Below are positions 1 through 48,397 of a DNA stretch of 64,000 nucleotides, in pieces. A program made the position numbers and the translations under genes. Source of the stretch: Bryoerythrophyllum caledonicum (taxonomy: Eukaryota; Streptophyta; Bryopsida; Pottiales; Pottiaceae); contig OZ020519.1 in assembly GCA_963971425.1 (NCBI GenBank), positions 5,534,028 through 5,598,027 of the forward strand. The letters are read 5' to 3'. Numbering within the stretch: the stretch's first letter is position 1; each line of letters begins with the position of its first letter. The notes beneath the pieces are model-generated. The model had not been told where the DNA came from, searched no databases, and saw nothing but the letters and a program-made list of their open reading frames with translations.

Positions 1-3000
1 TGTTTTGTAGTCCATGCAGTCTTTTGGCTAGTTTGATTTCTTTTGTAGGATTATATATTCCATAGCCAGCTTTTTCTCTGCGCCAATTTCCCAGACTGAT
101 CTGTTCTGGTGGTTTAAAGGAGCCATCGGTATAGTAGCTACATGCGGGGTCAAATTTTGGTGCGGTGTTAGTTTGGTAGTCCGGGAGGGGTGGAAGTGAG
201 GAAATGTGATCTAATGTGTTGTTATTGTAGTTTAGTTTTGACCATTTTTTGCTTTTATTTACTAATGTTTGTATAGGCGTTGGTGAGGCTGTCTTTGTAT
301 GTATCCGGTTTATGTTAAGAGTTTTTGCTATGGAGGTGAGTTCGGCAAGTTGATCTATGGTGCCAAGGGTTTAGTTTTGGTGGTGGACGCATATTATTTG
401 TAATGTAGATGGTTCAATTCTGGGCTTTTTTAACTCGGGTGGTATAGTAGGTTCTTCGTAATAAATTGAGTCTGCTTCAAATATTGCAAGGATGTGGGAG
501 TCTGCAAATGGCCTTGACTGGGGATTAAAGTTTTGGTACCAATTTTTGTCTGGGGTGATAATGAGTGTAGATGTGTGTTGTGGGTCGTTTTCTGCAGCAA
601 GGCGGGCCCAGTGTAGTGCTTGTTGAGTTTCTTCTTCATTGTGGGGGTGAGCTATACCATTTCCGACCCATTTATAGTCAAATGCTTTTCCCAGGGAGCC
701 AAATATTTTATCTCTTTCAAAGGGTGAGTAGAATTTCTTTAATTTGGTGGAACATGTGACGGGGGAAGAAAAGTATGATTGTTCAATGTTAAAGGATGAA
801 ATTAATGAGTCTAGAATAGATGTGGGTATTGTGTATTGTGCATTTTTTAGGGGGTTATTTTTTGAGATGCGGTATTTATATCTTTGGTATAGCCAAATTA
901 ATTCGGTTTCAAATGGTTGGGTAGTTGGTTCAATGTTTGTAGGGGTTTTTAGTTTCATATTGTATTGATTCCAGAGTCATCGGAGTCTAATAGTGGGGAT
1001 AGTGTGTAAATGTCGGCCATTTGCTTCATATAGATGGGCTTGGTTTTTCTCTATTTTTATTGAGTTCGAGGTTGTGGTAATATCTTTTTCGAGATTACAT
1101 TCCGTTGTATAGATGTTAAGGAGTGGTATGATTATAGGTGGGGTTACGGATCTTGAGTCTTGTAGTTGTTCTTGGGGGTGGTGTGCTTGAATGATTTCCG
1201 AGTAGAATTTATCTTTGATTTTTTGATAGTATTGTTTTAGCTTTTCGGTGTTGAATGTGGAGGTATTACAGTCGTGTCTTGGAAAAAGGTATCTTTGAGG
1301 GAGCCATTTGTTGAATGTATTGTTGTTGTGTTGCCATTGGCAAAGGTATTTTGTATAGGTGTTTTGTATTCTGTTGGCATCTTTTTGTTGTATGTGTTTG
1401 TGGCTTATGATGTTATGAACAGGGTATGTGGTGGGATTTTTGGTGATGTATGTTGGGGGTTAGGGTGGTGTGGGTATGATGGGTTGGGAGGATGGATTGG
1501 TGATAGGGTGGTTCTTGGGAGGATGTTGTTGTTGATGGTGATGAATGGGTCTTGGAGTATGTAGGAGTGTGGGTGTATGTTACAAGGGATATCGCATGTA
1601 GTTGGACATGTTGGATGGCAGAAAAGTTGTTTGGCAACATTTAGGGCATTCTTTATTAGTTTGGATGGGGTGAAGTGGAAGGTTTTGAAGTCCTCGTTAT
1701 TCATGATGTGTGTGCCGTTTGGTAAAGTGATTTGTTTTAGTTCAAAGATGTTTTTTGAGAGGAGTTTTTGTAAAAGTTTTTGGGAGAGTTGGGCGTTGAG
1801 TGTATTATGGTTGCGTGTTTCTTGACGCCATATTATTTCTAATGATGTTTGATCTAATAGGAAATTTGGGAGAGTACTTTTAAGGTGAACTTTAGCTTCG
1901 TGTTTTAATAAGAAAAATGTACGTGTTATAGGTGATCTTATACAATCTGTTTTTTTAATTCTCGGTATATTTTTGGCACCACCATATTGAGCAAGAACGT
2001 ATTGTGTTAGTCCATTATATATTTTCCCGAGCCTACCTTTGTCATTTAGAGCATTTTGTAGTTGTTCCCCGATACATCTTAGATATGCATTTTTTAGAGA
2101 GAAAGCTTCAAGTCCAAATAGGTTATGTGGGAGTTGGGTTATTGTATTTGACATACATTTTGGCATACCACAAATGGTTTTTTGTATGGCTATAATTTTT
2201 TGGTCAAGTTTTTTAATGGCTGGCATAGAGTATGGTACAGCGTAGAAGCTGTATGCTACCCCTGGGCGTATTACGGTGTCAACCATTTTAATTTTTTGTT
2301 TCATAGTGGCCGGACATGATGTTAGTTCTTTGCATTGTTTAGTGAGTTTTGTGGTTGTAGCGTGAATTTTGATTTTCCATTTTAGAGAGGGAACAAGATT
2401 TGTGCCTAGGTAAACATAAGCTTCGTTTTGGTGTAGTATGGGGATTGGTTGACCAGGGTAGTTGATGTTAGAAGCTTACATTAGGGCTTTAAATGTGGTT
2501 GGATTCAATTTGGATTTGTTTGGACATCCTGTAGCCGCGCATTTTGGGACGCCTACGTCCATACCGGTCCATTTACAGTATCTGTCGATTTTATCAATTT
2601 ACGTTTGTAGTGATTTTATTTTATTAGTTATAGTAGCAAGATCATCGGCGTAGGCGGCGGAGTTTATCGTGATTTGTGATGTACCAAAGGTGTATCCGTT
2701 ATTGCCTCTCTCTAGCCATCTAAGTAGTGGTTCTAAAAATATGATGAATAGGTATGGACTAAGGGTGTCTCCTTGTATAGTACCTCTATGAATGGGTATG
2801 TGTTTAGTTTGACCAAAGTGCTCACCGATGTAGTAAGTAGATGATTGAGAATAGATATTTCCAATTAGTGCAATTGCATCTTTTGGGTAACCAATATCAG
2901 TCATTATTGCTAATAATCGGGCGTGGTCTATAGAGCCAAAGGCGTTTTTGAAGTCAACATATAGAACGTATATGTCTTGATTTGTGAATCGTGCGTCTTC

Positions 3001-5760
3001 TAGTGCCGCTATTATAGTTTGTATTTGTCTTGAGGTACTTCTCTCTGCTCTAAATCCTTCTTCACTATCGTGTAGGATTTTAAACTTTTCACCGTATGAA
3101 GATAATATTGTGGTAAGTGTATTGGTGTAGAGTTTATATATTGTATTGGCTAGTGCTATTGGTCTATGGTTTGGTAATATTGAGGGGTCTCCTTTTTTGT
3201 ATAGTAAAATTGTTGCACTTGTTTTCCATGAGGCTGGTATTTGTTTTTGTTTATAGCAATGAGAGAAAAATAGAAATATTAATTTGTGAAATCTTGGGGG
3301 CATGTTTTTGAGTATTGAGTTTGGTATGCGGTCCGGTCCTGGGGCTTTGTTATTTCCGAGGTTACGTAGGCATGTATCGTATATGGCTCTGTTGAAGTAT
3401 GTGTGTAGTGGAGTTTCCGGGTCGCCTCGTTTGTCTAGGATAAAACCATCTAGATCATGCCATGGGTATTGGCGTACTGCACATGTGCATTTGATTGGAT
3501 GTTGTGGTTGGTAGTTGCATGTTGGTACTGTGGGTCTATTGTTTTTCGTCTGTTGTTTGAATATTTCGTTTGCGATGTCTTCTGGACTAGTTAGGATGTT
3601 ATTAAATTGGTCGATGATACAATCTAGTGGTGGGGATTCAGAGTTTTTAAAAAAAAAATTATTTATTTTCTTAGGGTTGGTTTCACATAGTTGTCTATAT
3701 TTTGAGATGGCTTTTTTAATATTGTCTTTTGAGTATTTTGTAGTTACTTTTCGTGCTTGTATATTGGCATTTTTTGCGATTAGTGCAATGTCTGTTATCC
3801 ATGTGTCATGGGGTAGGTTTGGGGGAGGTGGGGCGGGGATTTGGGTATGTTGTAAATTTAGTAATTCGTTACATATGGGATGGTTACGCCATTGTGGGTT
3901 ATTTTTTACGATTCTGATTGTTTTACGTATTGTGTGGTATGTGGTTAAGTGCTGTTTCCATATTTTTGAGAGTTTTCGGGGTAAATAGCCACCTTGTTGT
4001 GTTGTACGGTTTGTCATTTGTGGTATTGGTTGGGCTTTGCAGGTCTGTTCCAATGTATTAGAGATATTGTTTATAATTGTATCTAGAGTGTGACATGTTT
4101 CGTGCCATTGTGTTTGAGAGAGTTGATTATTATTGTCAAGGGTGTTTATGAGAGAGTCAATTGATATGGAGTTTTCTTCGAAGAATTTTGTGTTGAATTT
4201 TTCGAATTTATCTTTTGGGATGGGGTTAAGTATGCGTTTAGTAGTATTGTTTGCGGTTATGGGTGTACGGCTTATTAGTATGTTATTTGGGATGTTGAGT
4301 TGTATTGGCGAGTGGTCTGAGTTGAGAATAATGTCTTTGTTTGTTGTGGAAGTGTATTGTGTATTGTTATTTGTTTTTATATAAAAGCCATCTATTAGGC
4401 TCCAATCATTATAGTTGTAGCCACCTTGTCTGGAGTATTGTGTATCAGTGTTTATATAGGTGAAGTTTAGGTTTTCTGTGAAGTGGCGCCATTGATAGTC
4501 TATGGTTTGAGGTGGTGTGCTATAATTTCCGTTTTGTCTACCAATTAGTGCTAGGTCTCTATTGAAGTCTCCACATAGCAGGTAAGTATGATTAGGGTTT
4601 TGATTTAGTTGGGATGTGATAGTGTTTTGTATATCTATAATAAATCTAGTATCTTCAAGGTGAGATGGCATATACATGTGAAAAATTATCCATGGTTGTA
4701 ATGGTTGGTTAGTAATTCTAATTATTTGAAGATAGGGGGATATGTTCATTGGGGTAGGGATTTTTTTGATGTTGCCCGGGAAGGCATATTTTTTGTGTAT
4801 TAGTGTGAGTAGGCCCCCTCGTCCTGGTATATATGGTCGCCGTTGTTGGATACATCTAGTTAGTGTATGCGTGTTATTAAGAATTAGTTTATAGTCTTGG
4901 AATATGTTTTGTAGGTATTTGGTAGATTTTGTGGCGGATATTTTTGTTTCTTGAATGACTATGAGGGCCGGTGGTGTTTCTGCATATGTGGCCAAAGTTT
5001 GTAAGCTGGGGAGGGCGGTGTTTAGCGATGATGCATTCCATGTGATGATGTTTGTATGTTCGTTGTTTGTGTTAGTGTTTTGGTTCGGTGGTGGGGGGGG
5101 AAAGAGGGGAGAGGTGGTGGGTGTGTGTATTCTACTATGGGGTCAAAACATTTTAGTGTTTCATTAATTAAATTAATAGGGAGGTAGGGGAATTTCTGTT
5201 GTATTATGTTGCTTGGGGGGGGTGCAGTTTGACTATGTATAAAGTCATATAATTCCCTATGTATTGAGTTTCCGTAGTTTATGATATTTAGGTTATCTTC
5301 AAGAAATTTTGTATAGGGGTGTGTGGTGCGAATATGTCTTTCGGGTGGATTTTGTAGGTTTGATAAAGTTTGTAATAATGTGTTAGTCCATGTGGTTATA
5401 TTCGGGTTTTGTAAATTTAGGAGACGGTTACATTCGTCTATGTTTGGGTGGGTGGTAATTACTAATGCATAGAAAATATATGTTGATGGATGTGTATTTT
5501 ATTGTTGTATATATTGGGCAATATTTGGGTGCGTTATGTTAAATAGTTGATGTAATGTGTGTGTGGTTTTGAGAAGGGGTGAAAATGTCTATGTGTTTGT
5601 ATTCCGGTTGTAGTTTTATGGTATTTGGTATGAAGTATATTTTGGCGTTTTTCTTATGTGTTGTGGGATGTCTTTTTAGTATATTAGGCATGGGTCCTGG
5701 GTTGGTTTCTATATCTCCACTTAGCAATAGTAGGATTTTATAGTGTAGAGGTTTAGGGTG
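1..5760 (-). pseudogene. ORF2 of outer LINE: 2A, APE endonuclease, RT, partial RNase H; broken
   Basis: A stop-free stretch (about 4995-2602) covers the APE endonuclease (motifs IQET, Y.PS, GDFNRD, LIDGF, SDHSP) and the RT palm (GPDRIPNSIL, YVDFKNAFGS, GDTLSPYLF, YADD). The RT active site is intact. Beyond RT the frame has a TAA at 2599-2601, another at 2476-2478, a TGA at 977-979 and a TAA at 371-373. At the three TAA sites the inner copy has CAA (Gln). At the TGA the inner copy has TGG (Trp). At least two shifts of frame are also present (near 5590 and near 1405). It is therefore a decayed copy, but one with a recognisable order and active-site residues. The leftmost 200 bases encode the beginning of RNase H (YYTDGSFK). 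Confidence 0.9.
5692..5733 (-). other. 2A ribosome-skipping peptide in ORF2 of outer LINE
   Basis: Minus-strand codons read LLLLSGDIETNPGP. This matches the canonical 2A consensus D(V/I)ExNPGP preceded by a hydrophobic run and Gly. In 2A peptides the ribosome fails to join the final Gly-Pro and continues, giving two proteins from one frame. The same peptide occurs at the same place in the inner copy (11545-11589). Conservation in two diverged copies supports function in the ancestor. The downstream product would start at the Pro just before MPNILKRHP and carry the endonuclease and RT. Confidence 0.93.
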
Positions 5761-5844
5761 TTGTTTTTGATTTTTTGGTTTGTGTATAAATTTTTGGTAT
5801 TTTTTTGATTTGATGTTCTTGGTTTTAGTACTTGTATGTATGTT

Positions 5845-6062
5845 TTTGTTTTTGGGATTTGTTGCGATTCTGATGTTTTCTGTGGTTTTGAGTGTTATTT
5901 TTGTATATGTATTTTTTATAGTGTATGTGTGGGTTTGTTTATGGTTTTTTAGGTTTGTTTTTGGGATTTGTTGCGATTCTGATGTTTTCTGTGGTTTTGA
6001 GTGTTATTTTTGTATATGTATTTTTTATAGTGTATGTGTGGGTTTGTTTATGGTTTTTTAGG
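5845..6062. repeat. 109-bp tandem duplication in the ORF2 leader of the outer LINE
   Basis: Units 5845-5953 and 5954-6062 are nearly identical copies in head-to-tail order. The unit is 109 bp, which is not a multiple of three, so it shifts the ORF2 leader frame upstream of the 2A peptide in this copy. The near identity of the units means it is more recent than most substitutions between the two LINE copies. Confidence 0.9.
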
Positions 6063-6157
6063 TGTGTTTTTGTGTGTGTCTTTGTGGTTTGATGTGGGTG
6101 GGGTTGTGTTTGCGATTGTGGATGTGTGAGTGTGTGTATGTGTGTGTATGTATTATG

Positions 6158-6170
6158 TGTATTTTTGGTC
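6158..6170. repeat. Target-site duplication, left copy
   Basis: The 13-mer TGTATTTTTGGTC stands here and again at 18859-18871, immediately flanking the plus-strand LINE. The bases outside it continue the minus-strand outer element on both sides. A perfect 13-bp duplication is the expected mark of target-primed reverse transcription. Confidence 0.92.
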
Positions 6171-8290
6171 ATAATAAGTGTTATATGTTAATGCTATTTC
6201 ACTAGAAATGAACTGCTTGTGAGCTCCGTCTTTTCTGGTGAGGGAGGAGGAAGAACTTAGTCTCAGAAGTAGGGTTTGTGGGCGACAAGAGCGGCTAGAC
6301 TTGTCGAGAGCCCCCACAAGCTGTAGATCTGAGATGCTGAGAGGCTTAGGAAGCAGTACTATGTGTTGGAAAGAGCTCAAACACCAGATCTGAGATTAGC
6401 TGACCACGCTATGAACAAGAGGGATAGGTCTGAGCAAAGCGGATCTGAGAGCGAGGGCTTGTGTGTTGGAGCATAGATCTATTGGGCGTTGGAACTCAGA
6501 TCTAACGCAGGTCTGGTGAGAAGTCAGTGGTAGCTGCAGCCTCTCACAAAGTACCTTCCTCCTTCCCGACCCAGACTTCTTACACGCAAGACAAAGCAAG
6601 AAATCATCTCAACACGGATACCCAGCAGCAGTCTCCAATCACTTCAGGTTACACTTTACTTGTCTCATTGCTTTTACATAGTGTAGATCTCTCTCAATAG
6701 ACACTACACATTAAGCACATCACTACGCACACCCACCTTGTCACTAACATCTAACCCGTAGACACAGTCATAGAAAGGGCATATCCGCACGCCGCACGCG
6801 GCAGCGCTGTCAAATTTTTTTCGCAGATCTAAGCAACAAACAAGAGGAGAAAACCTAGGCGCCAACCCAAAGCCACCTCGCGCGCATCCATCATCGATCT
6901 GCGACACCACATCATTGCAACCCCACACATCAGCACCATCAGAGACAAACTTGCTAGAAGCGGCTCCCGTAAGGCGTCCAACAGACCAACTACAACAACA
7001 CAAAGACAAGCATCGCAGGAGCTCACAGACACAAGAAGACAGCTCAAAAAAGGAGGTAAGTACACCCGAAAAAAAAAAACCCTGTACTCTTCTTAATCTA
7101 TACAAGCCTCTCCTCTCTGCAACAGGATCCTCTCCTTCCCGCCCCCCCCCCCCTCCTCCCCCTCCACTCCTCTCTGCAACAGGTTCCTCTCTCTCTCAAC
7201 CAACCACTTCATCCTCCTCATCCCCTCGCAGCTAAATCCCTCCTCACCCCCTGCAGCTAAACCCCTCCGCACCCTTCGCAACCAAACCCCTCCTCACCCC
7301 CCTGCAGCCAAACCCCTCCTCATCCGTCGCAGTCAAACCACTCCTCACACCCCCCCCGGACGCAGACCTCCTACAAGATCAGGAGCAAGATCCAAGTACA
7401 CCACAAGATCAAGTACGCCGCAGGAACAAGAAACGACCTAAGCGCAAGCAGGTACAAGAACCGAAGACGCAGCAGTTCAAAGAAAAACTAATAACACCGC
7501 AGTAGGAGTACAGGAAAATATCAGTATACACACAGGCGTAGGGAGTGCCGAAGATTACCCACGAACCAGCCCTGCACATGCGAACAGCGAGCCACCCCCT
7601 CTGGAGTACAGCACAAACGCGCCCCAACGGCTCCATCGCGCGCCAGCGCAGGCGCCCTCATCGAACCTCCTGCGAGCGCGCGCCGCCTGAGATTCACAAA
7701 ACCCTGTCCCCGACCTGTTTCTACTGACGCGGAGTCCCCGAACCCTGGCGCGTACTGTCCCAGACCGCTTCGCCCCGCCGCGCACCCGTCTCGGCCTGCG
7801 GTGCACCCGCTCCGCCTTGCCGTGCGCCCGTCTCGTCCTGCGGGGCACCCGTTCCGCTCTGCCGCACTCCTGCTCCGCCCTACCGCCCTGCCACACTCTT
7901 GGCAGCCCGACCGTCCTGCCGCACTCCTGCTCCGACCTTAAATCTGCTCCGACCCTAAACCTGCGACCTGTAAACTGCTACCCCCCCTAGCTGCGACCCC
8001 CTTCCCCACCAACCCCCCTCCTTAACCTCCTACGACCCCCCTCTCCTCTTCCGACCTATTACGACCTTCTCTCTCCCCAGAAATCCCCTCTCCCCCCAGC
8101 TGATACCTCCCTCCCCATTCGCGACCTCCCTCTCCTTCTACCACCAACCCCTCTTCCTCATAAGACCTACCTCTTCCACCCCATAATCTACTCTACTCAT
8201 CCTCCAACCCGTAATACCCTCTTCTCAACCCCTCTTCATCTATACACAACCTCCCCCACCGCTAATATTGATAGAGCTCGACAAAACCGC
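6171..8290 (+). promoter_or_regulatory. 5' UTR / probable internal promoter of inner LINE, with AGATCT cluster and C-rich subrepeats
   Basis: The 2.1 kb before ORF1 align with the 5' region of the outer element (23510-21410, minus), so this is element sequence and not flank. The first 700 bp hold AGATCT or very close variants at roughly 6320, 6384, 6474, 6500, 6684 and 6826. From 7225 to 7350 there are about five imperfect C-rich units of 24-28 bp (core GCAGCTAAACCCCTCCTCAC). From 7770 to 7930 there are GC-rich units around CTGCCGCACTCCTGCTCCG. From 7960 to 8150 a CGACCTC/CGACCCC motif recurs. LINEs carry internal promoters in this position, so repeated protein-binding sites are plausible but inferred. 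A consensus splice-donor-like GAGGTAAGTAC lies at 7054-7064. Confidence 0.7.
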
Positions 8291-10402
8291 ATGAGTAGTG
8301 TAGACCAGTGCCAATCCACCCCTCGCAAAACCACTGAGAAAACAAATAGAAGAACCAATAGTGTAGAGCTCCGAAGATACCCCAAAAACAACTCACGACC
8401 TAGGCAAGCCAAAACTACCAGCACCTCTAGAATAGAAGCCGCACCTACCAAGACTAGACCATTGAACTCTAAGAAATCAGTAAACCCACCTCTGAAGCGT
8501 GACCTCACCCCCAAACCACGAAACAGGAAGAAGACATTGGAGATTAATCCCACCCCACCTCAACAACAACATCCAGGGACTCCAATTCATCTCTCAGACG
8601 ACAAAGAGGACACCCCTCTTACATTTCTTAGAACGAGACAGAGGTGTAAGACCACTACCTCTCTCCTCATATCCCCTGACCACAAAAGCCATCCCTCCTC
8701 CATCAAACCCTGTGACACTATGGAACAACCCCAAAAGGAGCCTAGCATTGCCACCGAAGCCATGGACATAGAAAACGGCGAAGCCAACTCCAAGATGACA
8801 TGCACTGACAAAACCTCTACCTTAGACCCTATAGAAGTACAACATCCGGCAAAGAAACAAAGAGGCAGTACCTTAGACCCAAAACTCAGTAGCAGCACCC
8901 CAAACCAATCCACATTCCATTTTTGGTTAGGCTTCCCAACCATGGAGAAGCTTGCGAAAGACACACACCTTGATCCACTATTCAGTGGTGAAAGTGTATC
9001 TGACATGATGACTAGAGGAGTACCCAAGTCAGAGGCAGAGGAAGCCATGAGTGCCACAGTATCCTACCCCCGAATCCCCCAAATGTTATATCCCAAGGCA
9101 AGGGAGGATGGTGTTGAGGGACAACACTTCAACCTCACACAACTCCCATTTGATATCCCCACTAACCCTGAAACTGGCCTATCATACGACTTCCATGTGG
9201 CCATCTTGTTTGAACTACCTAAGACCCCATTATACCATGATGATGTTAAGAGGCTTGCTAGAGATAGGCTCGCTAGGATGGACATTCCCCTAGGCACTAA
9301 CCTCTTGGATCCCCTTGCCATCCACTGCAAAGGAGTGAAGAAAGAAGGGCAGAGGCATATCTTCTCGGGGTTGATCAAACTTCACCTTCTCAATCCAGAA
9401 ACCGACGCCATCTCCCTACTCAAAGGTACACGATACTTTATATTGCAACTTGACCCTATGGGACCGGCATCCATGGGTAAAGTTTGCAAAACATGGCATG
9501 CAGTGGCCCGACAAGGTCTTTCTGTCAACATCAAGAGTAATAACCTATGTGGTATCCCTGCACATATCCTATTCCATAACGTGGTACTCAATGGCTTTTC
9601 TCGTAACCTTGAGTTTGAAATCACTGACGTCCAGAAACAGGAAAAGGAGCCTTATGCGTGGATTGTGGCACCTACCCCTACCCAAGCGAAGAAACTAGAG
9701 ATGCACCAAATTACAACCTTCCACGAGATAATCCCCGCGAAGCCCAGCAACACTGGAACCTTCACAACCACTGACAGAGCCAAGAAGGATGCGCTCACAC
9801 TCACACTTTCTCAACTACCCATCCTGTTGAGCGTGGTTGAAACCACGGAGGCCATTACAAAGGCGTTAGAGGCTAAGAACATAATGAGCATTTGGTTCCA
9901 CCGTCACATTGATGGCAAGCACAATGGCTCTGCCAATGTGCAAGTTACCAACCCTATTGTCTATAGACAATACCTTGACAAGACCTTCAATATTGGTTGC
10001 CACCAAGTTGAAATTCGACCCCACCGGCGTAGTCTTGATGGCATAGACCCTCCCCCCATCAACTTGGTGGAGAAATGGGGATTCAACGACATAAACACCG
10101 CCTTGGTGAACACAGTTGCCGCCATCAACCCCACTACCGCACACACCACCAACATACGCGAAGAGGTGGCTGCAATGATGGCAGAAGGCCACGAAAAAAT
10201 CCGCTCAGAGTTATCTACTCTCAAGAAGGACATCATTCGAGAGACACGAGAATACACCGACGCCCGCAACGCCGAGGTATAATCAAAACTTGATGATGTT
10301 GAGAAACTAATGAGTGTTGCTTTGTCGGTGATGAAAGGTATCAAGTCCAACCGCGAAGTGCTTTCTCTCCCTCATATGGATGACCCGTCAAACGTGGATT
10401 GA
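8291..10402 (+). pseudogene. LINE ORF1 protein (inner copy), one in-frame TAA near the end
   Basis: ORF1 is open from ATG 8291 to a TAA at 10280-10282 (663 aa). The same frame then continues 39 codons to TGA 10400-10402, ending DDPSNVD. The outer copy reads through this point with CAA and ends DHSNVD, so the TAA is a point loss near the C-terminus. The outer copy has no counterpart to the first about 143 residues, so ATG 8720 (MEQPQKE) may be the true start. The conserved body begins FHFWLGFPTMEKL (about residue 210). The C-terminus is a predicted coiled coil (residues about 615-700). A basic PAKKQRG patch could be a nuclear signal. I do not recognise the central fold. ORF1 proteins of LINEs bind element RNA, and that role is inferred here. 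Confidence 0.85.
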
Positions 10403-11070
10403 TCAAAGACCGCCCACGACTTCTTCAACAAATGGATGATCACGGGCTCCCCCTATACCTAGCTACATCTCTCCTAATAGTTACACCTCTCCCCATCATA
10501 CTACATATCTACCCTATCACTCCCCTCTCCTCCCTTCACCTTATCGTAAAACTAGTGATTTATTTCATTACAATCTCATACTATTGCTTCCATTCGGTTG
10601 GTATAACTCCCTTTACTCTCTCTCCTCTCCCTACCTTCTTAGTACTTGTTGTAGCTTCCAATAGATACTACTTTGAGAACACATGTCACACATATGAGTA
10701 CAAATCCATGAGAAGGTTACAACCTTCCCCTTGGGTTCCTCTAACTCATATGACTATGTTCTATAACCAATACCACTACAACAATACACACCTCACTTGT
10801 CATTGGCAATGGCATTGGCTTACCACCCAAAAACTTCACACCACACATGTACCACATACCAAAAAACATACGATACCACCTTATCATCACCACCAACAAT
10901 TGACCGCAAACAACACCTTTAAACACCATTACAACATACTACTCCCAAAATACAGAACCTTAACATTATCTAACATGCACACCCAACAACCGCACACAAA
11001 CAAACACCACTTACAAAACACACCACCATATACACCCATCACCAAAAGCACCAACTCTAATCACATAAAA

Positions 11071-11115
11071 CTTCTACTTCTTGACAGAGACATAAAAACA
11101 AACCCCAAACAACCT
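11071..11115 (+). other. Degenerate second 2A-like motif in ORF2 leader
   Basis: Codons read LLLLDRDIKTNPKQP, in frame and 158 residues upstream of the good 2A (11545-11589). The hydrophobic run, the D-I-x-T-N-P core and spacing match, but the final Gly-Pro needed for skipping is replaced by Lys-Gln, so it should be inactive. It looks like an old duplicate of the 2A unit. Chance similarity is possible because the leader is low-complexity, though the LLLL prefix argues against it. Confidence 0.55.
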
Positions 11116-11544
11116 ACAAATCCAAGCACAAACTACAGAAAACACATACTCTCTTACACAAATATTTGTACTCATACAAATACAAACATATATACAAGTA
11201 TCAATACAAAAAAACTTACAAACAAAACTAAATACAAACACAAAAGTAAATACACATACATCAATACAAAAACAAACACCAATACAAAAATAACAAACAA
11301 ACAACAATACAACAATGTAAACACAATAAAAATTATACAAAGTAACAACAAAAAACTCCCCAACATAAAACATACAACAAAACACGCCAATAATCAAAAT
11401 AACTATAAAATCAAAAAAGAAGTGAATATCCGAATTTCAACACACCAACACACTAAAAACAAAAAACAAAATACAAAAAAATACCTAATCTATACACGAA
11501 AACCACAAAAAACAAACGATCACATTAAACCCAAACACTACAAA

Positions 11545-11589
11545 CTCCTAATACTACTAAGTGGAGATATAGAAACCAACCCCGGACCC
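11545..11589 (+). other. 2A ribosome-skipping peptide in ORF2 of inner LINE
   Basis: Codons encode LLILLSGDIETNPGP, a perfect match to the 2A consensus (D-I-E-x-N-P-G-P). Skipping at the last Gly-Pro would separate the 382-residue leader from the endonuclease-RT protein. 2A sequences are known in some trypanosome L1Tc and CR1-like LINEs, usually at the N-terminus of an ORF. Here it lies internally, about 220 residues before the APE domain. The outer copy keeps the same residues at 5692-5733. Confidence 0.95.
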
Positions 11590-14500
11590 ATGCCAAATAT
11601 ACTAAAAAGACATCCTATAACACATAAGAAAAATGCTAAAATATACTTCATACCAAATACCAGAAAACTACAACCGGAATATAGACACATAGCTCAAACA
11701 TTTGCACCTCTAATAAAAGCTACACATATACTACACCAACCATACAACACTAAATACCCACATATCGCTCAATACATACAACAACAAAACACACGCCCAT
11801 CATCACATATCCTATACGCCCTTATAACCACTATCCACCCAAACATAGACATGTGTAACCACCTTTTAAACACACAAAATCCATATATAACCCAATGGAC
11901 TAACTCACTACTACACACCCTCTCTAACTTACAAAATCCACCCGAAAGACACATCGATATTCCACACCCTTATACAACATTTCTGGAAGAAAATCATAAC
12001 ACCATAAACCACGGAACAACAATACATAAAGAATTATACGACTTTATACATAGGCATAACATACCCCCTTCAAACAACATAATACAACAAAGATTTCCTT
12101 ACCTCCCTAACAACCTAATTAACGAGTCCCTCAAATGTTTTGACCCCATACCTGAATATACACATCCGCCCCCCCCACCACCCTACCTCCCTCCACAAAA
12201 CCAAAATAGTAGACCAAATAATGATAAAACATACATAGTTACATGGAACGCCTCATCTCTAAATACCGCCCTTCCTAGCCTAAAAACCTTGGCCACACAT
12301 ACAAACACACCACCGGCCCTCATAGTTATACAAGAAACAAAAATATCCGCCACAAAATCTACAAAATATATACAAAATATCTTCCAGGACTATAAACTTA
12401 TTTTTAACAATACACATGCACTCACAAGATGCATCCAACAACGGCGACCATACACACCGGGACGTGGTGGCCTCCTCACACTAATACACATAAAATACGC
12501 CTTCCCGGGTAACATAAACAAAATTCCTACCCCAATGCTCATATCACCCTACATTCAAATAATCAAAATTACTAATCACCCACTACAACCATGGTTAATC
12601 TTTCATATGTATATGCCATCTCATCCCGAAGATACTAGATTTATCATAGACATACAAAACACTATTACATCTCAAATTAATAATTACCCCAATCACACAT
12701 ACTTATTATGTGGAGACTTCAATAGAGATATAGCATTAATTGGTCGCCAAAATGGAAATCAGAACACCCCCCCTCAAACCATTGATTACCAATGGCGTCG
12801 CTTCACAGAAAACCTAAACTTCACTTACATTAATACCGATACACAATTCTCTAGACAAGGTGGCTACAATTATAGTGATTGGAGTCTAATAGATGGTTTC
12901 TATATAAATACAAACAACAACACACAATATACCTCCACAACAAACAAAGATATTATTCTCAATTCGGACCACTCACCCGTACAACTGCACATCCCAAATA
13001 ACACACTAATTAGTAGAACTCCTACAATCCCAAACAAAGACACCATACGCATACTCAACCCCATCCCAAAAACCAACATAGAAAAATTCAACACAAAATT
13101 CTTCGAAGAAAACACCGTACAAATAGACTCCCTCATAAACACTCTTGAAATCAATAGTCAATTAACACAAGCACAATGGCAAGAAGCATGCCACTCTCTA
13201 GACAAACTCATCAATAAAATCTCTGATACACTAGAAGAAACTTGTAGAGCACACCCAATACCCCAAATGACAAACAGAACCTCTCAACAAGGCGGGTATC
13301 TACCCCGCAAACTTTCTAAAAATTGGAAACAACACTTAACCACATACCATACCATACGTAAAACCATTAGAATTGTAAAAAACAACCCTCAATGGCGTAA
13401 CCACCCCATATACAACGAACTACTAAATATACCACACATCCAAATCCCTACCCCACCGCCTCCAGACCTTCCCCACGATACATGGATAAAAGATATCGCG
13501 ATAATCGCAAAAAATGCCAACATACAAGCCCCGAAAATAATCACAAAATACACAAAAGAAAACATTAAAAAAGCCATCTCAAAATACAGACAACTATACG
13601 AAATCAGCCCCAAAAAAATTAACAAAAAAGTCTTTAAAAACCTTGAATCCCCACCAATGGATTGTATCAAAGATCAATATAATAATATTCTAACTAACCC
13701 CGAAGACATTGCGAATGAAATATTCAATCAACAAACAAAAACCAATAGACCAACAGTACCAACATGTAATTACCAGCCACAACATACAATAGAATGCACA
13801 TGTGCAATACGCCAATACCCTTGGCACGACCTGGACGGATATACCCTTGACAAACGGGGCGAACCAGAAATTCCACTACATAAATACCTCAACAGAGCCA
13901 TATACGACACATGCCTCCAAAATCTTGGAAATAATAAAGCCCCAGGCCCAGACCGCATACCAAACTCAATACTCAAAAACATGCCTCCAAGATTTCATAA
14001 ACTACTATTCCTATTCTTTTCTCACTGCTATAAACAAAAACAAATACCAAATTCATGGAAAACAAGTGCAACAATTCTACTATACAAAAAAGGTGATCCA
14101 TCCATGCTACCCAATCATAGACCAATTGCACTAGCTAACACAATATATAAGCTTTTTACCAGTACACTCACCCACATACTATCCTCATACGGCGAAAAAT
14201 TCAAAATCCTACATGATAGTCAAGAAGGATTTAGAGCGGAGAGAAGTACCGCACGGCAAATACAAACTATAATAGCCGCATTAGAAGACGCAAAATTTAC
14301 TAACCAAGATATATACATACTATACGTGGACTTCAAAAATGCCTTTGGCTCAATTGATCATGCCAGACTCCTAGCAATAATGTCAGACCTCGGCTACCCA
14401 AAAGAGGCAACTACACTTGTTGGAAATATCTATTCTCAATCATCTACTTGCTACATCGGCGAACACTTTGGAAAAACAAAACCTATATCCATCCAAAGAG

Positions 14501-17139
14501 GAACTATACAAGGGGACACCCTCAGCCCATACCTATTTATTATATTTTTAGAACCACTACTTAGATGGCTAGAAAGAGGCAATAATGGATATACTTTCGG
14601 CACATCACAAGTCACAATAAACTCCGCCGCATACGCAGATGACCTAGCCACCATAACTAACAAAATCAAATCAATCCAAATACAACTCCATAAAATTGAT
14701 AGATATTGTAAATGGGCTGGCATGGATGTGGGAGTTCCAAAATGTGCCGCTACCGGATGCCCAAACAAATCTAAATTGAACCCTACCACTTTCAAAGCCC
14801 TAATGCAAACCTCTAACATCAACTACCGCAACCAACCAATCCCTATACTACACCAAAACGAACCATACATATACCTAGGTACAAATCTTGTTCCCTCACT
14901 AAAATGGAAAATCCAAATCCACACTACAACCACAAAGCTCATCAAACAATGCAAAGAACTAACAACATGCCCAGCCACCATGAAACAAAAAATAAAAATG
15001 GTTGATACCGTACTACGCCCAGGTGTGGCATACAGTTTCTATGGTGTACCATACTCTATGCCAGCCATCAAAAAACTTGATAAAAAAATAATAGCCATAC
15101 AAAAAACCATATGTGGATTACCAAAATGTATGTCAAACGCAATAACCCAACTACCACATAACCTATTTGGACTTGAAGCTTTCTCCCTCAAAAACGCATA
15201 CCTCCGATGCATAGGCGAACAACTGCAAAATGCGCTAAACGATAAAGGAAGACTTGGGAAAATATATAATGGATTAACTCACTATGTCCTTGCCCAATAT
15301 GGTGGCGCTGAAAACATACCGAGAATTTAAAAAAGTGACTGCATAAGATCACCAATAACACGAACATTCTTTTTATTAAAACATATAGCTAAAACCCACC
15401 TTAAAAGTACGCTCCCGAACTTCCTCACTAATCCTACAACTCTAGAAATACTATGGCGCCAAGAAACATTAAATCATAACACACTCAATGCCCAACTCTC
15501 CCAAAAGCTTCTACAAAAACTCCTCTCAAAAAATATTTTTGAACTAAACCAAATTACCTTACCTAACGGTACACACATCATGAACAATGAGGACTTCAAA
15601 ACCTACCACTTCACCCCATCTAAACTAATAAAGAGTGCCCTAAGTGTTGCTAAACAACTATTTTGCCACATAACATGCCCCACTATATGTCATACTCCTT
15701 GCAACATACACCCATACTCTCATACACTTAAAGATCCATTCATCACCCTCAACAATAACATCATCCCAAGAAATATTCCCACACCAACCAATCCCTCTAA
15801 TCTTCCACATACATACCACCCCCGCCCCCCAACATACATCCCCAAAAACCCTACCACATATCCCATTAATAATATCATAAACCATAAACATATCCAACAC
15901 ACAGACACAAATAACATACAAAATACCTACACAAAATATCTATGCCAATGGCAACACAATGATAATACATACAATAAATGGCTCCCCCAAAGAGACCTTT
16001 TTCCACGGCATGACATCAATACCTCCACACATAACACAGAAAAATTAAAACAATACTACCAAAAGATCCAAAACAAAATATACTCAGATATCATCCTTGC
16101 CCACCATCCGCAAGAACAATCCTCAGACTCAAGGTCCGTAACGCCACCCATAATTATCCCACTCTTAAACATCTACACAACAGAATGCAACCCCGAAAAT
16201 GATATCCTTACATCCTCAAACACAATTCAAATAGATAACAATCAAGCACATCTATACGAAGAAAACGGCCGACATTTACACACCATACCCATTACCCGGC
16301 TCCAATGGTTATGGAACTAATATCATACAAAACTACAATCCCCTACAAACATTGAACCAACAACCCAACCCTTTGAAACCGAGCTAATATGGCTTTACCA
16401 AAGATATAAATATCGAATACCAAAAACTGACCCCCTCAAAAATGCGCAATACACAATACCCACCCCCATTTTAGACTCACTAATATCATCCTTTAACATC
16501 GAACACTCATACTTTTCCTCCCCGATCACATGTCCTACCAAACTAAATAAATTCTACTCACCATACGAAAGAGACAAAATATTTGGATCCCTAGGCAAGG
16601 CCTTTGACCACAAATGGATCGGAAATGGAATAGCTCACCCCCACAACGAGAAAGACATGGAACAAGCCATACATTGGGCTAGACTTGCCGCCAAACACGA
16701 TCCAAATAACACAAAAACAATCATCGTCACACCGAACAACAATTGGTACCAAAACAACAACCAACATTCAAACCCATTCCCAGATTCCCACATCATTGCA
16801 TTATTCGAAGCAGACACAATACCATACGAAGAACCTAATATCCCACCCGAGCTAAAAAAACCCCGAATAGAGCCATCTACATTACAAATACTATGCGTCC
16901 ATCATCAAAATCAAAACCTGGGCTCCCTAGAACAACTTGCGGAACTTACCTCCATAACAGACAATCTAGACATACAACGACCATACACAAAACCGGCCCC
17001 ACCAACACCCATACAAACCCCCGTAAACAAAAGTAAAAAATGGTCAAAATTAAACTATGACAACAACACATTAAACTACTCCGTCATACCTCCCCCTCTC
17101 CCAGACTACCCAACTCATACCACACCAAAATTTAACCCC

Positions 17140-17575
17140 GCATACAGTTATTACACCGACGGCTCCTTTAAACCACCGGAACAAATTATCCCGGGCTCTT
17201 GGCGAAGAGAAAAAGCTGGCTATGGCATATATAATTCTACCAAAGAAATTAAACTAGCTAAAAGACTCCATGGACTACAAAATATCCTCAGAGCAGAACT
17301 CATGGCCATTCACAAAACACTACAAATCATCACAACAAAATACAAAAATGAACCTGCACATATATTCACCGATTGTATAAACGCACTCTACCTACTAAAC
17401 ACTCAAATAACACACCCAACCCTTCACAACAGTCACCCCGACCAAACCATACTAACATCAATGGTACAAATGTTACAAAAACGTACACAAATCACAACCC
17501 TTCACAAAGTCAGAGCCCATGCCAACGTTGATGGCAACGAACAAGCAGACAAACTTGCAAAAGAAGGCCGAGAAA
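17140..17575 (+). other. RNase H domain of LINE ORF2
   Basis: The acidic residues expected of RNase H are visible: Asp in YYTDGSF (codon 17158-17160), Glu in LRAELMAI (17296-17298), Asp in FTDCINAL (17371-17373), and the terminal His...Asp in HANVDGNEQADKLA. All catalytic positions are present. In LINEs this domain removes the RNA strand after reverse transcription. Its position after RT and before the CCHC knuckle is usual for elements that carry it. Confidence 0.9.
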
Positions 17576-17937
17576 AAACACACAAAAACGCCAAAGACCC
17601 TCACGAACATGCTCATGCCACCCCATACTACTTTCAAAAAGAAAATTGGCCTTCCAAAGAAGATACCCCCGACAAAGGCCCAATTAGATTTCTGGGCAAA
17701 TATCTCAAAAAACAAGACCTCTACAACAACTTGGATACAATCTCAGAAAATATTCCTAACATAGAAAAATGGACTAACAATAACGACATAGACAATGAAC
17801 TCTCTACAAACTTTTGGAAAAACCCCATCATCTCAGACTCACAAATAACGTGCCTCATCAAATTCCGTACGGGTCAGTACATGGGAAACGCTCGCAAACA
17901 ACTCTTCTTTGGAATAGAAAGATTCCCATCCATAACA

Positions 17938-18540
17938 TGTCCCATATGCCCCTCAACGGACCCCGACACATGGCTTCACGTGCTACTCAAATGCCAAAAC
18001 CACCACATACACTCTCTAATTGTTAAAAGACATAACAAAGCGGTATGGGAAGTCCGAAAACTAATCATCTCCTACAATAAATCGAGATGTTTCATACTTA
18101 TGAACGCCGGCACTTTTAATAGCAATCCACAAGAAAACACGGTCCCCCCATGGCTACTTCCATGCTCATGTATGACCCAAAGATGTCATTGCAACGCTAG
18201 GCTCAAACCGGACATTCTTTGTGTCAAAGGTTTACCATACAACGACCCACCACCCGAGAACATCAACCAAGACTACACCATTCAATTCATCGAAGTTACA
18301 TATTGCAACGATAGATTCTCCCCGGAAACAATACAAAACAAAATAGATAAATACCAACCCCTCATAGACGACATCATTGCCCTCGGCTGGAATGTGGACC
18401 CCCTTATTGTTATCACATCCGGCGCTCGTGCCACCACCTTTATCCCATCTATGAAAACTCTCGAAGATACCTTCAAGATACCCATTGATACAATTAAAAC
18501 TACCTTTAAAAATATCAACACCATCGCTATTCAACATGCC
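17938..18540 (+). other. CCHC knuckle plus C-terminal restriction-like endonuclease (PD-(D/E)XK) domain
   Basis: A CX2CX9HX4C knuckle (17938-17994) is followed by a second Cys cluster (CSCMTQRCHC, ending just before 18205). Next come K-P-D-I (18205-18216), hydrophobic-Glu-Val-Thr (Glu codon 18292-18294), a Lys (18340-18342) and K-Y (18349-18354). The order K/R-PD, about 25 residues, E/D, then K...KY is the signature of the restriction-like endonuclease of R2-type LINEs, which sits in the same place after a CCHC knuckle. All key residues are present. The assignment rests on motif order alone. Confidence 0.82.
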
Positions 18541-18612
18541 ATGTCTATTTTACTGCATAAATGCAAAATCGAAAACAACCAAGTCCTCCCTGATAGGCAA
18601 GACCCCCCTTAG

Positions 18613-18858
18613 GAACTTCGCCACTCTGTCTCTTCCTCATTGGCTGCTTGTTTGGTTTTGTTGTTTAGTTAGTTTGGTCGTGGTTGGTCGTTGTTGGTTG
18701 GTTTCTGGCTACTCGTTACATAGTGTCTACCCTCGAAAGGGGGAAGTAGTTCCAGTTCGCTAATTCCTTGTCCGGGGGGCATGGTCTTAGCAAGGGAACG
18801 AACAGACACTTTATTCACACCGGTTCCCTTCGGGAACCGGCGTTCTTCTTCTTCTTTT
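18613..18858 (+). other. 3' UTR of inner LINE with terminal hairpin and TTC tail
   Basis: Between the ORF2 stop and the target-site duplication lie 246 bp. A perfect hairpin (arms CCGGTTCC and GGAACCGG, loop CTTCG) occupies 18820-18840, and a (TTC)n/T tail follows directly. Related tails occur at about 42065-42190 and 44440-44590, each with a weaker hairpin in the same place. A conserved terminal stem-loop is what stringent LINEs use for template recognition by their own reverse transcriptase. That role is inferred. Confidence 0.8.
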
Positions 18859-18871
18859 TGTATTTTTGGTC
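18859..18871. repeat. Target-site duplication, right copy
   Basis: TGTATTTTTGGTC, identical to 6158-6170, directly follows the inner LINE's tail. From 18872 the minus-strand outer element resumes. Confidence 0.92.
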
Positions 18872-19769
18872 TTATGTGTGTATATTTGGTTGTGTGGATG
18901 TATTTTTGTTTTTGTGTATGTGTGTACATGTGTGTTTGTGGTTTTATTTTTGTGTTTTTGTGTGTGTGTGAGTGTGTAGGTGTTTGTGTGTTTGTCTTGG
19001 TTTTGTGTGTGTGTATGTATGAGGGCGTGTATGCAATTATGATGATTGTTTTTGGTGAGTTTGTCTTGGTGGTAGTTTGTTTGGTTGTGTTTTTGGGAGG
19101 TGTGTGTAAGAGGAGACATGCAAGATGGTAAGTGTTCTTATTAGTTGGAGGTGTTTGTGGGAGTAGGATTTGTGTGTTGTGTGTGTGTGTATGGGGTGTG
19201 TTTGTGGTGTAGGGACGTCGTAAGAATGTATAAGTGTTCAGTGTGTGTATCTTGTATGTTTTTTCCCAAGAGATATTCATACCGTAATGGTATATGCAGT
19301 GACGATGTTTATAAATATGTGGGGTGAAACCCCAAAAACAGTACATGTATCCAACATGAGGTCTCCAGGACATGCATTTAGTTGTAAGTATTTTTTGGTA
19401 ATAGTAGAGAGTGTGTCTAGAGTAGGAGGTGACTAGTGATGAGGAAATACATCCTGTGGTAAGGCTAAGGTATACTGCAACTATAGTAGTGCAAAGATAT
19501 GTCATTATTAAGGACAAGGTAGTGAGAGGGTGAAGCCTTTGGGAGTTTACATCTAGTTGTAGTGGTGTGGGGGGTACTAATATAGTATGTGTGAGAGTAC
19601 TAACTAGCATATTGTAGTAACGAGAAGAGAACATACTAGAGGGGATAATATTTTCAATGGACATAGGAATGTTCGAAGAGAATTGGAGAGTATGGAGGGG
19701 AGGTGTGCTAACCTTGTCCTTCCATGTGGTGCCATATTGGTGATTTCTTCGGCTGGGGTCATTGGTCAA
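18872..19769 (-). pseudogene. ORF2 leader of outer LINE, cut by the inner insertion
   Basis: The frame starts TTG ACC at 19769, overlapping the ORF1 stop (TTGA) exactly as in the inner copy, and stays open to the insertion point. The N-terminal part is hydrophobic and the distal part is rich in His, Thr, Lys and Asn, like the inner copy's leader. Residue identity between copies is low here compared with the RT region, so the leader appears to be under weak constraint beyond composition and openness. Confidence 0.75.
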
Positions 19770-21409
19770 TCCACGTTTGAGTGGTCTTCCAAGGCTGGAG
19801 TGTTTGGTGGCCTCGAACTTGTGATTTGTTGCATAGCCATCAGTGCTGATGTCATTAGCTGCTCCACATTTGATAGCTTGGCTTGTAGCTCACTGGTGCG
19901 GTTATCGGTGTAGGCTCTTGTGTCCTTGATGATGTCCTCTCTAAGGGTAGAGAACTCCTGACGCAGTCTTTTGTTGCCTGCATCTATAATGGAGGTCATT
20001 TCTGACCTGGTGATACTCGCGGGAGCGGGGGTAGTTTGGAGGGACTCCACGTTGTTTACGAGGGCTTTGTTGATGTCATTAAAACCCCACTTCTCCAATA
20101 ATGCGGTGGTGGGTGGGTCCTCTCCTTCGAGGCTACGGCGGTGGGGAGAAATCTCCACTTGATGTCGTCCTATGGTGAATGTTTTGTGTAGAAATTGGCG
20201 GTAGATAATGGGGTTAGGGAATTGCACATTTGCACTACCGTTATGCATTCCTCTCTGCTGCCTGTGGAACCATAGGGAGGTGACATTCTTGGCCTCAAAG
20301 GTTTGGTGAATGGCTGCCGTGGTTTCTGCCACGCTCATAAGGATGGGAAGGTGTGAGAGGGTGGCCGTTAACGCGTCCTTTTTGGCTCTATCAGCTGGAG
20401 AGAGGCCTCCAGAGCTACTAGCACGTGCTGGTATCACCTCATGGTGTGTGGTAATTTGGTGGAGCTCAAATTTCTTGGCTTGTTGAGGGGTTGGGGCAAC
20501 AATGAAGGCGTGTGAATCTTCATGTACCTTCTGCACATCTGTAATCTCAAATTCCAAGTTTCTCGAGAAACTATTTGTCACCACATCTTCGAAGAGGGTG
20601 TGGGCAGTCACACCTTTGAGGGACTCGCTCTTGATTCGTACTGATAAATTCTTCCTTGCTACTGCATGGAAAGTTTTACATACTTTCCCTAAGGAGGCCT
20701 GTCCTATAGGGTCCAATTGTAGAATAAAGTATCTAGTGCCACGAAGGAAGGCAATAGCATCAACCTCTGGCCTGAGGAGGTGTAGTTTAATAATCCCTGA
20801 CCATATACCCTTTTGCCCTTCTTTTTTGACCCCTTTGCATAGAACGGCCATGGGGTCCATTGGGTTGGTGCCTAATGGGATGTGCATGTGTTCGAGCCTA
20901 GCTAGTGCTAGCCTCTTCACGTCATCATGGTACATGGGGTGCGGTGGCAATTTGAAGTGAATTGCCACATGGAAATCATAGGAGAGTCCAGTGATAGGGT
21001 GCGTAGGGATATCGAAGGGTACCTGTGTAAGGTTGTAGTGTTGGCCCTCGATGTTGTCATTGCGCACCGATGAATATAAAATTTGTGGGATCCTGGGGTA
21101 GGCCACCGCAGCATTGAGGGCCTCCTCTGCTTCATCTTTAGGTACTCCACGAGTGATCATGTCTCTGACACTCTCTCCACTGAATAAGGGCTCTTGCCCT
21201 ACATCCATGGCAAGCTTTTCCATAGTGGAGAAGCCCAACCAAAATCGAAATGAGGAGAGGTCAGGGATAGAGACTTGGATGGAGGTGGAACAGTTACCTC
21301 GAGCTTTTTTGGATGGGGTTGGGCCTCCACTGGCCATTGAGACTAATTCTTCAGTCTCTGTGATCTTCATAGCTCTTGGGTGGGGGTTTTCGGTGTCCAT
21401 GGCATCCAT
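19766..21409 (-). CDS. LINE ORF1 protein (outer copy), intact 547 aa
   Basis: ATG 21409 to TGA 19766, uninterrupted. It aligns along its length with ORF1 of the inner copy (e.g. FWLGFSTMEKL, PLFSGESV, RGVPK.EAEEA, YHDDVKRLA, HRRSLEG.DPP.). N-terminal 45 residues are unlike the inner copy apart from a PSKKARG basic patch. The C-terminal 70 residues (DAGNKRLRQEFSTLREDI onward) form a probable coiled coil, which in LINE ORF1 proteins drives oligomerisation. I see no CCHC finger or RRM signature that I can name. The frame is intact although its element is split, so it could still make ORF1 protein if transcribed. The start is chosen as the first ATG followed by homologous sequence, with two near Met alternatives. 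Confidence 0.85.
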   Translation of the reverse strand: MDAMDTENPHPRAMKITETEELVSMASGGPTPSKKARGNCSTSIQVSIPDLSSFRFWLGFSTMEKLAMDVGQEPLFSGESVRDMITRGVPKDEAEEALNAAVAYPRIPQILYSSVRNDNIEGQHYNLTQVPFDIPTHPITGLSYDFHVAIHFKLPPHPMYHDDVKRLALARLEHMHIPLGTNPMDPMAVLCKGVKKEGQKGIWSGIIKLHLLRPEVDAIAFLRGTRYFILQLDPIGQASLGKVCKTFHAVARKNLSVRIKSESLKGVTAHTLFEDVVTNSFSRNLEFEITDVQKVHEDSHAFIVAPTPQQAKKFELHQITTHHEVIPARASSSGGLSPADRAKKDALTATLSHLPILMSVAETTAAIHQTFEAKNVTSLWFHRQQRGMHNGSANVQFPNPIIYRQFLHKTFTIGRHQVEISPHRRSLEGEDPPTTALLEKWGFNDINKALVNNVESLQTTPAPASITRSEMTSIIDAGNKRLRQEFSTLREDIIKDTRAYTDNRTSELQAKLSNVEQLMTSALMAMQQITSSRPPNTPALEDHSNVD

Positions 21410-44439: not shown

Positions 44440-44595
44440 AATACACTATCCTATGTCATGTGGCCATAGGCTTAGTGAAGGGAATGAACAAACACTATCC
44501 TATGTCTTGTGGTCATAGGCTTAGTGAAGGGAATGGACAAACACTATATTCATGCCGGTCCCCGTCAAGGACCAAGGTTCTTCTTCTTCTTCATC
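44440..44595 (+). mobile_element. LINE 3' tail with internal 56-bp tandem duplication
   Basis: Two copies of ACACTATCCTATGTC.TGTGG.CATAGGCTTAGTGAAGGGAATG lie in tandem (about 44448-44503 and 44504-44558). They are followed by CACTATATTCATGCCGG, a short stem (GGTCC/GGACC) and GTTCTTCTTCTTCTTC, matching the terminal part of the giant LINE 3' UTR including its TTC tail. Confidence 0.7.
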
Positions 44596-48350: not shown

Positions 48351-48351
48351 A

Positions 48352-48397
48352 GTGTTTAGGTTTAGGTTTAGGGTTAGGTTTAGGGTTAGGGTTAGGG
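48352..48397. repeat. Interstitial telomere-like tract mixing TTTAGG, TTTAGGG and TTAGGG
   Basis: About seven contiguous units on the plus strand: TTTAGG twice, TTTAGGG twice with TTAGG between, then TTAGGG twice. TTTAGGG is the usual plant telomere unit. Mixed units of different length in one 46-base run are unusual. Confidence 0.85.

Follow-up and report, generated by a model that had tools for sequence, protein, structure and literature searches.

How a long interspersed nuclear element (LINE) that carries two endonucleases frees its enzymes from whatever is translated ahead of them is the question raised by a 64,000-nucleotide stretch of contig OZ020519.1, hereafter the window. A first-pass annotation had described in it a giant second open reading frame (ORF2) combining a 2A peptide with an apurinic/apyrimidinic endonuclease (APE) and a restriction-like endonuclease (RLE), and had read it as a member of a dual-nuclease Dualen/RandI lineage, an interpretation that the present analysis supports. 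Very probably the element is a young LINE of Dualen/RandI type with a high copy number, in which a 2A/StopGo site releases the ORF2 product from an N-terminal leader. The sequences point to this through the domain architecture, the R2 and CAPAM folds seen in structure models, the placement of the reverse transcriptase (RT), a 2A that is exact in every long-frame copy read, leaders free of stops, target-site duplications (TSDs) and a 3' hairpin followed by a TTC tail. The joining of two nucleases with a 2A stands, whereas its supposed uniqueness to the window element does not, since relatives and some Haematococcus proteins share it.

The window LINE is organised as 5' untranslated region (UTR), ORF1, ORF2 and a short 3' end. 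The annotated motifs GDIETNPGP (11563-11589), YADD (14632-14643), CX2CX9HX4C (17938-17994) and KPD (18205-18213) were all found in place, as were the APE motifs (WN, GDFN, SDH) and the DGS of RNase H. The annotated start at 10399 proved to be just the first TTG, with the frame itself opening at 10384, within the end of ORF1. The best match of the window RT in the PDB by sequence was R2 (3e-32), with no L1 among its PDB matches at E 0.01, while two L1-like proteins paired best with L1 in the same kind of search. In a tree of 55 RTs (LG+G4 without mixture), whose rows exclude the Chlamydomonas Dualen/RandI type sequences, the window element and an older copy beside it formed a seven-row group (100/100) with P0004, P0005, P0007, P0008 and P0009. 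This group lay inside a 42-row clade (98/97) that includes Pleodorina, Haematococcus and Parachlorella proteins; the 11 rows of RLE-LINEs and the two L1-like rows fell outside this clade, in agreement with the Dualen/RandI placement. Long branches were flagged for P0104, P0119 and P0123, and odd letter make-up for P0005, P0007, P0008 and P0123. The name of the Chlamydomonas type element was absent among the matches listed, these being the best 120 of 278 in the protein database search. For the RLE region, the AlphaFold2 (AF2) model (pLDDT 89) gave seven top PDB fold matches that were all R2 proteins, though the underlying alignment contained R2-like proteins and thus biases the model toward the R2 fold. 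Together with the CCHC knuckle and the PD...E/D...K motif, the modelled fold indicates that the C-terminus is an R2-type RLE, as the annotation had proposed for the second endonuclease. The residues D280, E326, D351 and D410 of RNase H were invariant in 24 sequences.

The 2A itself is well preserved. The DIETNPGP of the window matches the (D/G/C/N)(V/I)ExNPGP core of 2A/StopGo sites, for which L-rich contexts and an H14 variant are active in vitro (PMC12846837); the upstream contexts LILLSG in the window and LLLLSG in the older copy fit the L-rich class. This older copy, on the minus strand, holds a second perfect 2A (NPGP at 5703). Among long-frame copies elsewhere in the source genome, the 2A was read in 20 of 23 (L013, C8:16629040 and C2:21394227 were left out), and a perfect GDIETNPGP closed the leader in the RLE frame in all 20, each with an open frame long enough to span both 2A and RLE. 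This end of the leader read LLLLLGGDIETNPGP in 13 of the 20 copies and LLLILGGDIETNPGP in the other 7.

Leaders around this last 2A vary between subfamilies, and the last 2A itself remains constant in 20/20 copies. From 10399, not one stop interrupts the window leader in frame, where 20.5 would be expected and the two other frames hold 26 and 17. Four further leaders, with open frames of 1411, 780, 511 and 461 amino acids (aa), were likewise stop-free, while their other frames held 131/133, 50/57, 25/35 and 35/46 stops (114, 43.5, 29.7 and 34.6 expected); for each of the five, none of 1000 first-order Markov resamples was free of stops. Zero stops are partly a product of selection, because the copies were chosen for long frames, but the stop-rich sister frames and the occurrence of leaders common to several copies argue that openness is a trait of the family. 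Additional 2A-like sites occur within leaders: L059 carries an extra 2A-like GELEINPGP, L059 and L062 a GGDMETNPRP, and L060 with L047 two perfect 2As 108 aa apart, while in L061 a DIENNLGP stands ahead of a decayed second version of the segment that follows the 2A and begins the APE. The 1411-aa leader of L059 with L042 is very hydrophobic at its start and contains a basic unit of about 43 aa several times over. Over window positions 1-23500, leaders appear as GT-rich DNA on the opposite strand.

A 2A-like NPGP preceded the APE in 12 of the 35 relatives with at least 120 aa ahead of that domain, namely eight close relatives, three Haematococcus proteins and P0053, which starts with MDIQPNPGP. 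In the close relatives reaching the site it was present in 8/8, with the strict core in five and H or Q for E in three, and P0012 and P0014 hold a tandem pair. Two more Haematococcus proteins showed a 2A-like NPGP with a partial APE match; the order in this genus is 2A, Josephin, APE where found, and RT, and the proteins, being near relatives in one genome, were counted as one case. PF12237, RVT_1, RNase_H and an APE occurred together in P0017, P0040, P0041 and P0055. Josephin was found in all four chlorophyte proteins scanned (P0046, P0048, P0049, P0075), and OTU lay below cut-off in P0013 and P0017. A PHD finger was noted in P0055, and added modules around the core (Josephin, OTU-like, PHD) were also flagged for P0030, P0038 and P0040. 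P0006 (a 2A-APE half) and P0100 (a CAPAM-like-RNase H-RLE half), for both of which the longest contig given is 13377, are perhaps one broken element from another genome. A search for relatives in viral contigs gave four pattern matches, none of them related.

Copies of the family, which the annotation had suggested looking for, were abundant. In the source assembly (437 Mb, 894 contigs), 59 places were scored, a lower bound from 11,732 first-look candidates, with the window at 100% and the others at 98-99% over 763 aa. The longest open frame reached 3,757 aa, and 23 of the 59 places had frames of at least 2,563 aa, one of which has a TAA within the matched part. Across 3.8 kb, in-frame stops were absent from 21 of 29 other copies, and differences from the column majority fell on codon positions 1/2/3 as 398/297/934 in the copies compared; pairwise distances had a median of 0.017 (range 0.0008 to 0.19). 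As 6 of 40 random 900-bp spots matched the family, with about 3.3 of 36 kb aligned, it would make up near a tenth of the genome, with a wide error.

The window LINE is nested inside the older antisense copy, the 3' part of which shares 82% DNA identity over 5.9 kb. The 3' hairpin was identical in 22 of 30 copies, variant in seven and unmatched in one, inspection by eye giving no support for covariation, and the TTC-rich tail measured 9-32 nt in 29 of 30 (one not measured). TSDs of 10-13 bp flanked six of ten insertions (window, L014, L021, L024, L027 and, read by eye from the flanks, L025) and were not found in L026, L030, L031 and L037; flank matches of 21 nt in L026 and 12 nt in L031 were rejected since they do not adjoin the 5' end of the element. 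Site-specific insertion was dismissed, as no common target was seen by eye in 30 flanks. Self-targeting was also rejected (nine of 30 3' flanks in another family copy vs six of 40 random spots, Fisher p 0.15), as was an antisense preference among self-insertions (7/9, p 0.18). The TSDs, the hairpin with its TTC tail and the unshared flanks fit non-specific target-primed reverse transcription, and do not indicate which nuclease acts.

How ribosomes reach the leader is suggested by the end of ORF1. In the window, ORF1 has a premature TAA at 10280-10282 (663 aa) ahead of the family-type TGA at 10400-10402, and a Pfam scan of ORF1 gave no match. In 13 of 17 junction sequences, representing seven distinct types, ORF1 ends with YCAAAC and, zero to two codons further on, its stop, while the -1 frame was stop-free throughout the stretch read. 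In five types (window, L112, L113, L061 type and L059/L121) this frame leads on to the 2A, and in the older copy it is open as far as the insertion point; for the window, L112, L113 and the L061 type, the leader frame opens 13-19 nt ahead of where ORF1 stops. YCAAAC is missing in L116, L117, L120 and L122, of which L116, L120 and L122 apparently do not start at an ORF1 end. In element DNA the motif precedes 11 of 1316 stops, true sites included. Its A_AAC corresponds to the second half of canonical -1 frameshift sites (PMC5009743), while the full X_XXY_YYZ heptamer is not formed, the P-site half being G_YCA in six of seven types and C_UCA in one. We propose, with moderate confidence, that the leader frame is entered independently of an AUG, probably through a -1 shift.

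Apart from the annotated features, the window contains ORF1, the older copy in which the LINE is nested, a second 2A that has decayed, a domain resembling PCIF1 and a weak match to a chromodomain.

Features of the LINE and its surroundings in the window, with the basis of each assignment
Feature	Position	Strand	Basis or remark
Older copy, 3' part, cut by window edge	1..6157	-	Inverted repeats, alignment; own perfect 2A 5692-5718
Left TSD TGTATTTTTGGTC	6158..6170		Exact 13-bp match to right copy
Entire LINE, about 12.7 kb	6171..18858	+	TSD; older antisense copy split on both sides
5' UTR	6171..8290	+	Interval from TSD to ORF1
ORF1	8291..10402	+	ORF list, ORF1 of older copy, junctions of other copies
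Leader reading frame, to 2A glycine	10384..11586	+	Open frame
TCAAAC, candidate entry site from ORF1 to leader/ORF2 frame (-1)	10388..10393	+	YCAAAC adjoining ORF1 stop in other junctions
Decayed upstream 2A (LLLLDRDIKTNPKQP), DIKTNP at 11089	11071..11115	+	Resembles first of tandem 2As in P0012, P0014
2A/StopGo GDIETNPGP	11563..11589	+	Predicted separation between G 11584-11586 and P 11587-11589
APE endonuclease	12238..12981	+	PF03372 / PF14529; WN, GDFN, SDH motifs
RT, YADD at 14632	14095..14880	+	RVT_1 6e-26, over cut-off
In-frame TAA	15328..15330	+	Private to window copy among 30 compared
Possible chromodomain	15871..16005	+	PF00385 E 0.0099, 16.2 bits vs cut-off 25.1
In-frame TAA	16318..16320	+	Private to window copy among 30 compared
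CAPAM/PCIF1-like methyltransferase-fold domain	16321..16962	+	Pfam and fold
RNase H	17143..17571	+	PF00075 2.4e-13, over cut-off
Knuckle and R2-type RLE (predicted)	17818..18609	+	KPD 18205-18213; alignment, AF2 model, fold matches
CCHC knuckle	17938..17994	+	Invariant in 30 aligned sequences
3' hairpin CCGGTTCCC-TTC-GGGAACCGG	18820..18840	+	Compared across 30 copies
TTC-rich tail	18842..18858	+	Compared across 30 copies
Right TSD TGTATTTTTGGTC	18859..18871		Exact 13-bp match to left copy
Older copy, 5' part: leader frame and ORF1 (19766-21409)	18872..21409	-	ORF list, alignment

A number of observations weigh against the reading of the element as a dual-nuclease LINE with StopGo release of ORF2 and frame entry at YCAAAC. 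The window copy is dead, with the two TAA codons splitting ORF2 into stop-to-stop pieces of 1643, 329 and 763 aa, so that the single giant ORF first annotated does not exist in this copy, though neither stop occurs in any of the 29 others compared. Its APE matches PF03372 / PF14529 at E about 6e-4, below the Pfam cut-offs, which P0003 and three of four chlorophyte proteins nonetheless pass. The 20 other copies read have LLLLGG or LLILGG before the core, a GG one letter off the L-rich class, which as published has A, S or C followed by G, and they were picked for long frames, which favours intact 2As and open leaders. No 2A-like NPGP precedes the APE in 23 of 35 relatives, so that the 2A cannot be called fixed in the clade. 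L060 and L062 are discontinuous from ORF1 to the 2A, as their -1 frame at ORF1 differs from the 2A frame, which does not open until 230 nt and about 2.4 kb past the ORF1 stop. Finally, prediction without pseudoknots found no stable RNA structure downstream of YCAAAC (7 x 100 nt; z -1.43 to +1.44). The 2A-like motif might be a functionless relic or a chance match, and the decay of several upstream 2As (NPRP, NPKQ, NLGP) would suit such a view; it is nonetheless very improbable, as the composition of the ORF2 frame predicts the strict pattern only 3e-5 times and the last 2A ahead of the enzymes is intact in every copy read while the leaders differ. That only one nuclease works, the other being kept for DNA binding or structure, is unlikely but deserves more weight. 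The unshared flanks and TSDs of 10-13 bp, a length that APE LINEs produce, suggest that the RLE may not choose the target. On the other hand, KPD and the next E are kept across the aligned relatives, with the later K in most rows, the APE motifs are present, and P0003 holds both domains. An assembly chimera of unrelated elements can practically be dismissed: no point in its favour was found, the near-identical places number 59 including the window, the 3' UTR is common to 30/30 loci read, and proteins from other contigs combine the same domains.

For the expression of ORF2, the rival to a frameshift is ordinary re-initiation at an AUG past the ORF1 stop, as in some LINEs, with the 2A trimming a short or optional leader. 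This explanation is possible, if somewhat doubtful. An AUG lies at codon 17 of the window leader and about 28 codons past the ORF1 stop in L059, and the lack of a predicted stable structure points the same way. L117 has a long open frame and a leader related to that of L112, yet no YCAAAC in the 301 bp read, and YCA is a non-canonical slippery codon by comparison with the canonical sites (PMC5009743). Re-initiation does not readily explain the L061 type, where the first AUG of the leader is codon 311, yet not one stop falls in the 303 codons from the ORF1 stop to it (expected, 16.8; other frames, 17 and 26; stop-free in 0/1000 Markov resamples). Nor does it explain why YCAAAC is kept in seven junction types although the four measured ORF1s are just 36-48% identical to that of the window. 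What we tentatively propose, as quite possible, is an RNA-virus-like expression of the LINE. It would comprise an AUG-less exit from ORF1, a -1 shift at YCAAAC, a leader of 393-1,411 codons selected solely for openness, and one or more StopGo sites freeing the dual-endonuclease RT. As StopGo would cut the leader off, the leader could grow by duplication of 2A cassettes, and the 2A might thereby be an evolutionary firewall that separates the conserved enzyme from a leader that changes fast.

In the reading favoured here, the ribosome would exit ORF1 at YCAAAC into the -1 frame and translate a leader nearly free to change in sequence. At the 2A the Gly-Pro bond would not be made, and translation would continue as Pro-Met-Pro...-APE-RT-CAPAM-like-RNase H-RLE. 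The ORF2 protein may then bind its own 3' hairpin and TTC tail, nick non-specific target DNA and copy the RNA by target-primed reverse transcription; a division of labour, with one nuclease for first-strand and the other for second-strand cleavage, is a guess.

The usual LINE has either an APE or an RLE, while Dualen has both. R2, which has a fixed target in ribosomal DNA, lacks both APE and 2A, in contrast to the window family, which shows no common target sequence and has an APE and a 2A. Odon 2013 is said to have described 2As in APE-type LINEs, of sea urchin and in other elements, and L1Tc is reportedly a 2A-bearing APE LINE. Such elements resemble the window family in having the 2A in frame with the enzyme part, but the window family adds an RLE in the same frame, a very long leader and duplicated 2A cassettes. 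In the literature, 2As are known from retrotransposons without long terminal repeats (PMC4981915, citing Odon 2013), Dualen is known to carry APE and RLE, with RNase H reported for the clade (PMC4640811), and has been reported in Chlamydomonas relatives (PMC8226300) and cryptophytes (PMC12747079), and short interspersed nuclear elements paired with RandI have (ATT)n or (CTTT)n tails (PMC3747384). The window element likewise has RNase H, a simple-repeat tail and a single RT accompanied by both APE and RLE, and its RT falls with chlorophyte proteins in a tree without Chlamydomonas type rows. It differs from Dualen/RandI in the 2A directly before the enzyme part, the long stop-free leaders, the lack of a Josephin or OTU match in a Pfam scan, and a host that is probably a streptophyte. 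Among the literature matches listed, no 2A in a dual-endonuclease LINE was found (Kojima and Fujiwara 2005 and Odon 2013 lay outside the search), nor a CAPAM-like domain in a LINE or a YCAAAC entry (most subscription papers lay outside).

With near-identical copies by the dozen in an assembled genome, long open frames being present in 23 of 59, the family makes it possible to test why Dualen has two nucleases. It also supplies a natural series of 2As, among them tandem, variant and decayed ones, and puts natural StopGo sites into a probable plant genome. A 2026 survey gives no evidence of StopGo use by plant viruses (PMC12846837); the virus-like expression, if true, would constitute natural StopGo use in a plant genome. 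The candidate AUG-independent route to ORF2 in a LINE is the most valuable new part.

Between RT and RNase H, the structure model of the CAPAM/PCIF1-like domain showed the CAPAM fold. By sequence against the PDB, two designed TPR chains ranked ahead of CAPAM, which appeared just at E 0.33, and the assignment is thus based on Pfam and fold. NPPF is the catalytic motif of the CAPAM/PCIF1 methyltransferase, with which the window domain shares the fold but not this motif. NPPF was absent from all 25 aligned rows (85 columns; CAPAM not being a row, the column was placed by inference), where the window has AHPH and relatives NPE, NPG or SPP-like letters, which makes catalysis doubtful; the domain may bind caps or RNA without methylation. 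Precomputed PF12237 matches were noted in P0001, P0002, P0013, P0015, P0017, P0022-P0024, P0029, P0030, P0038, P0040, P0041, P0055, P0066, P0070, P0073, P0074 and P0100. Judging from the sequences, a CAPAM/PCIF1-fold domain with an altered NPPF-type motif is common in Dualen-type ORF2 proteins.

Elsewhere in the window, a TTTAGGG-like tandem repeat at 48348-48397 is perhaps an interstitial plant-type telomere repeat. Pieces of host genes were recognised by eye, resembling a plastid DnaJ (40713-41120), an SFR2-like glucosidase (52079-52450) and a TMEM131-like protein (36203-38344), the last with four protein matches at 39-44% identity, three of them with PF24474. Short tandem duplications in host DNA lie at 30638-30832 (98 bp), 44443-44547 (49 bp) and 45871-46079 (106 bp).

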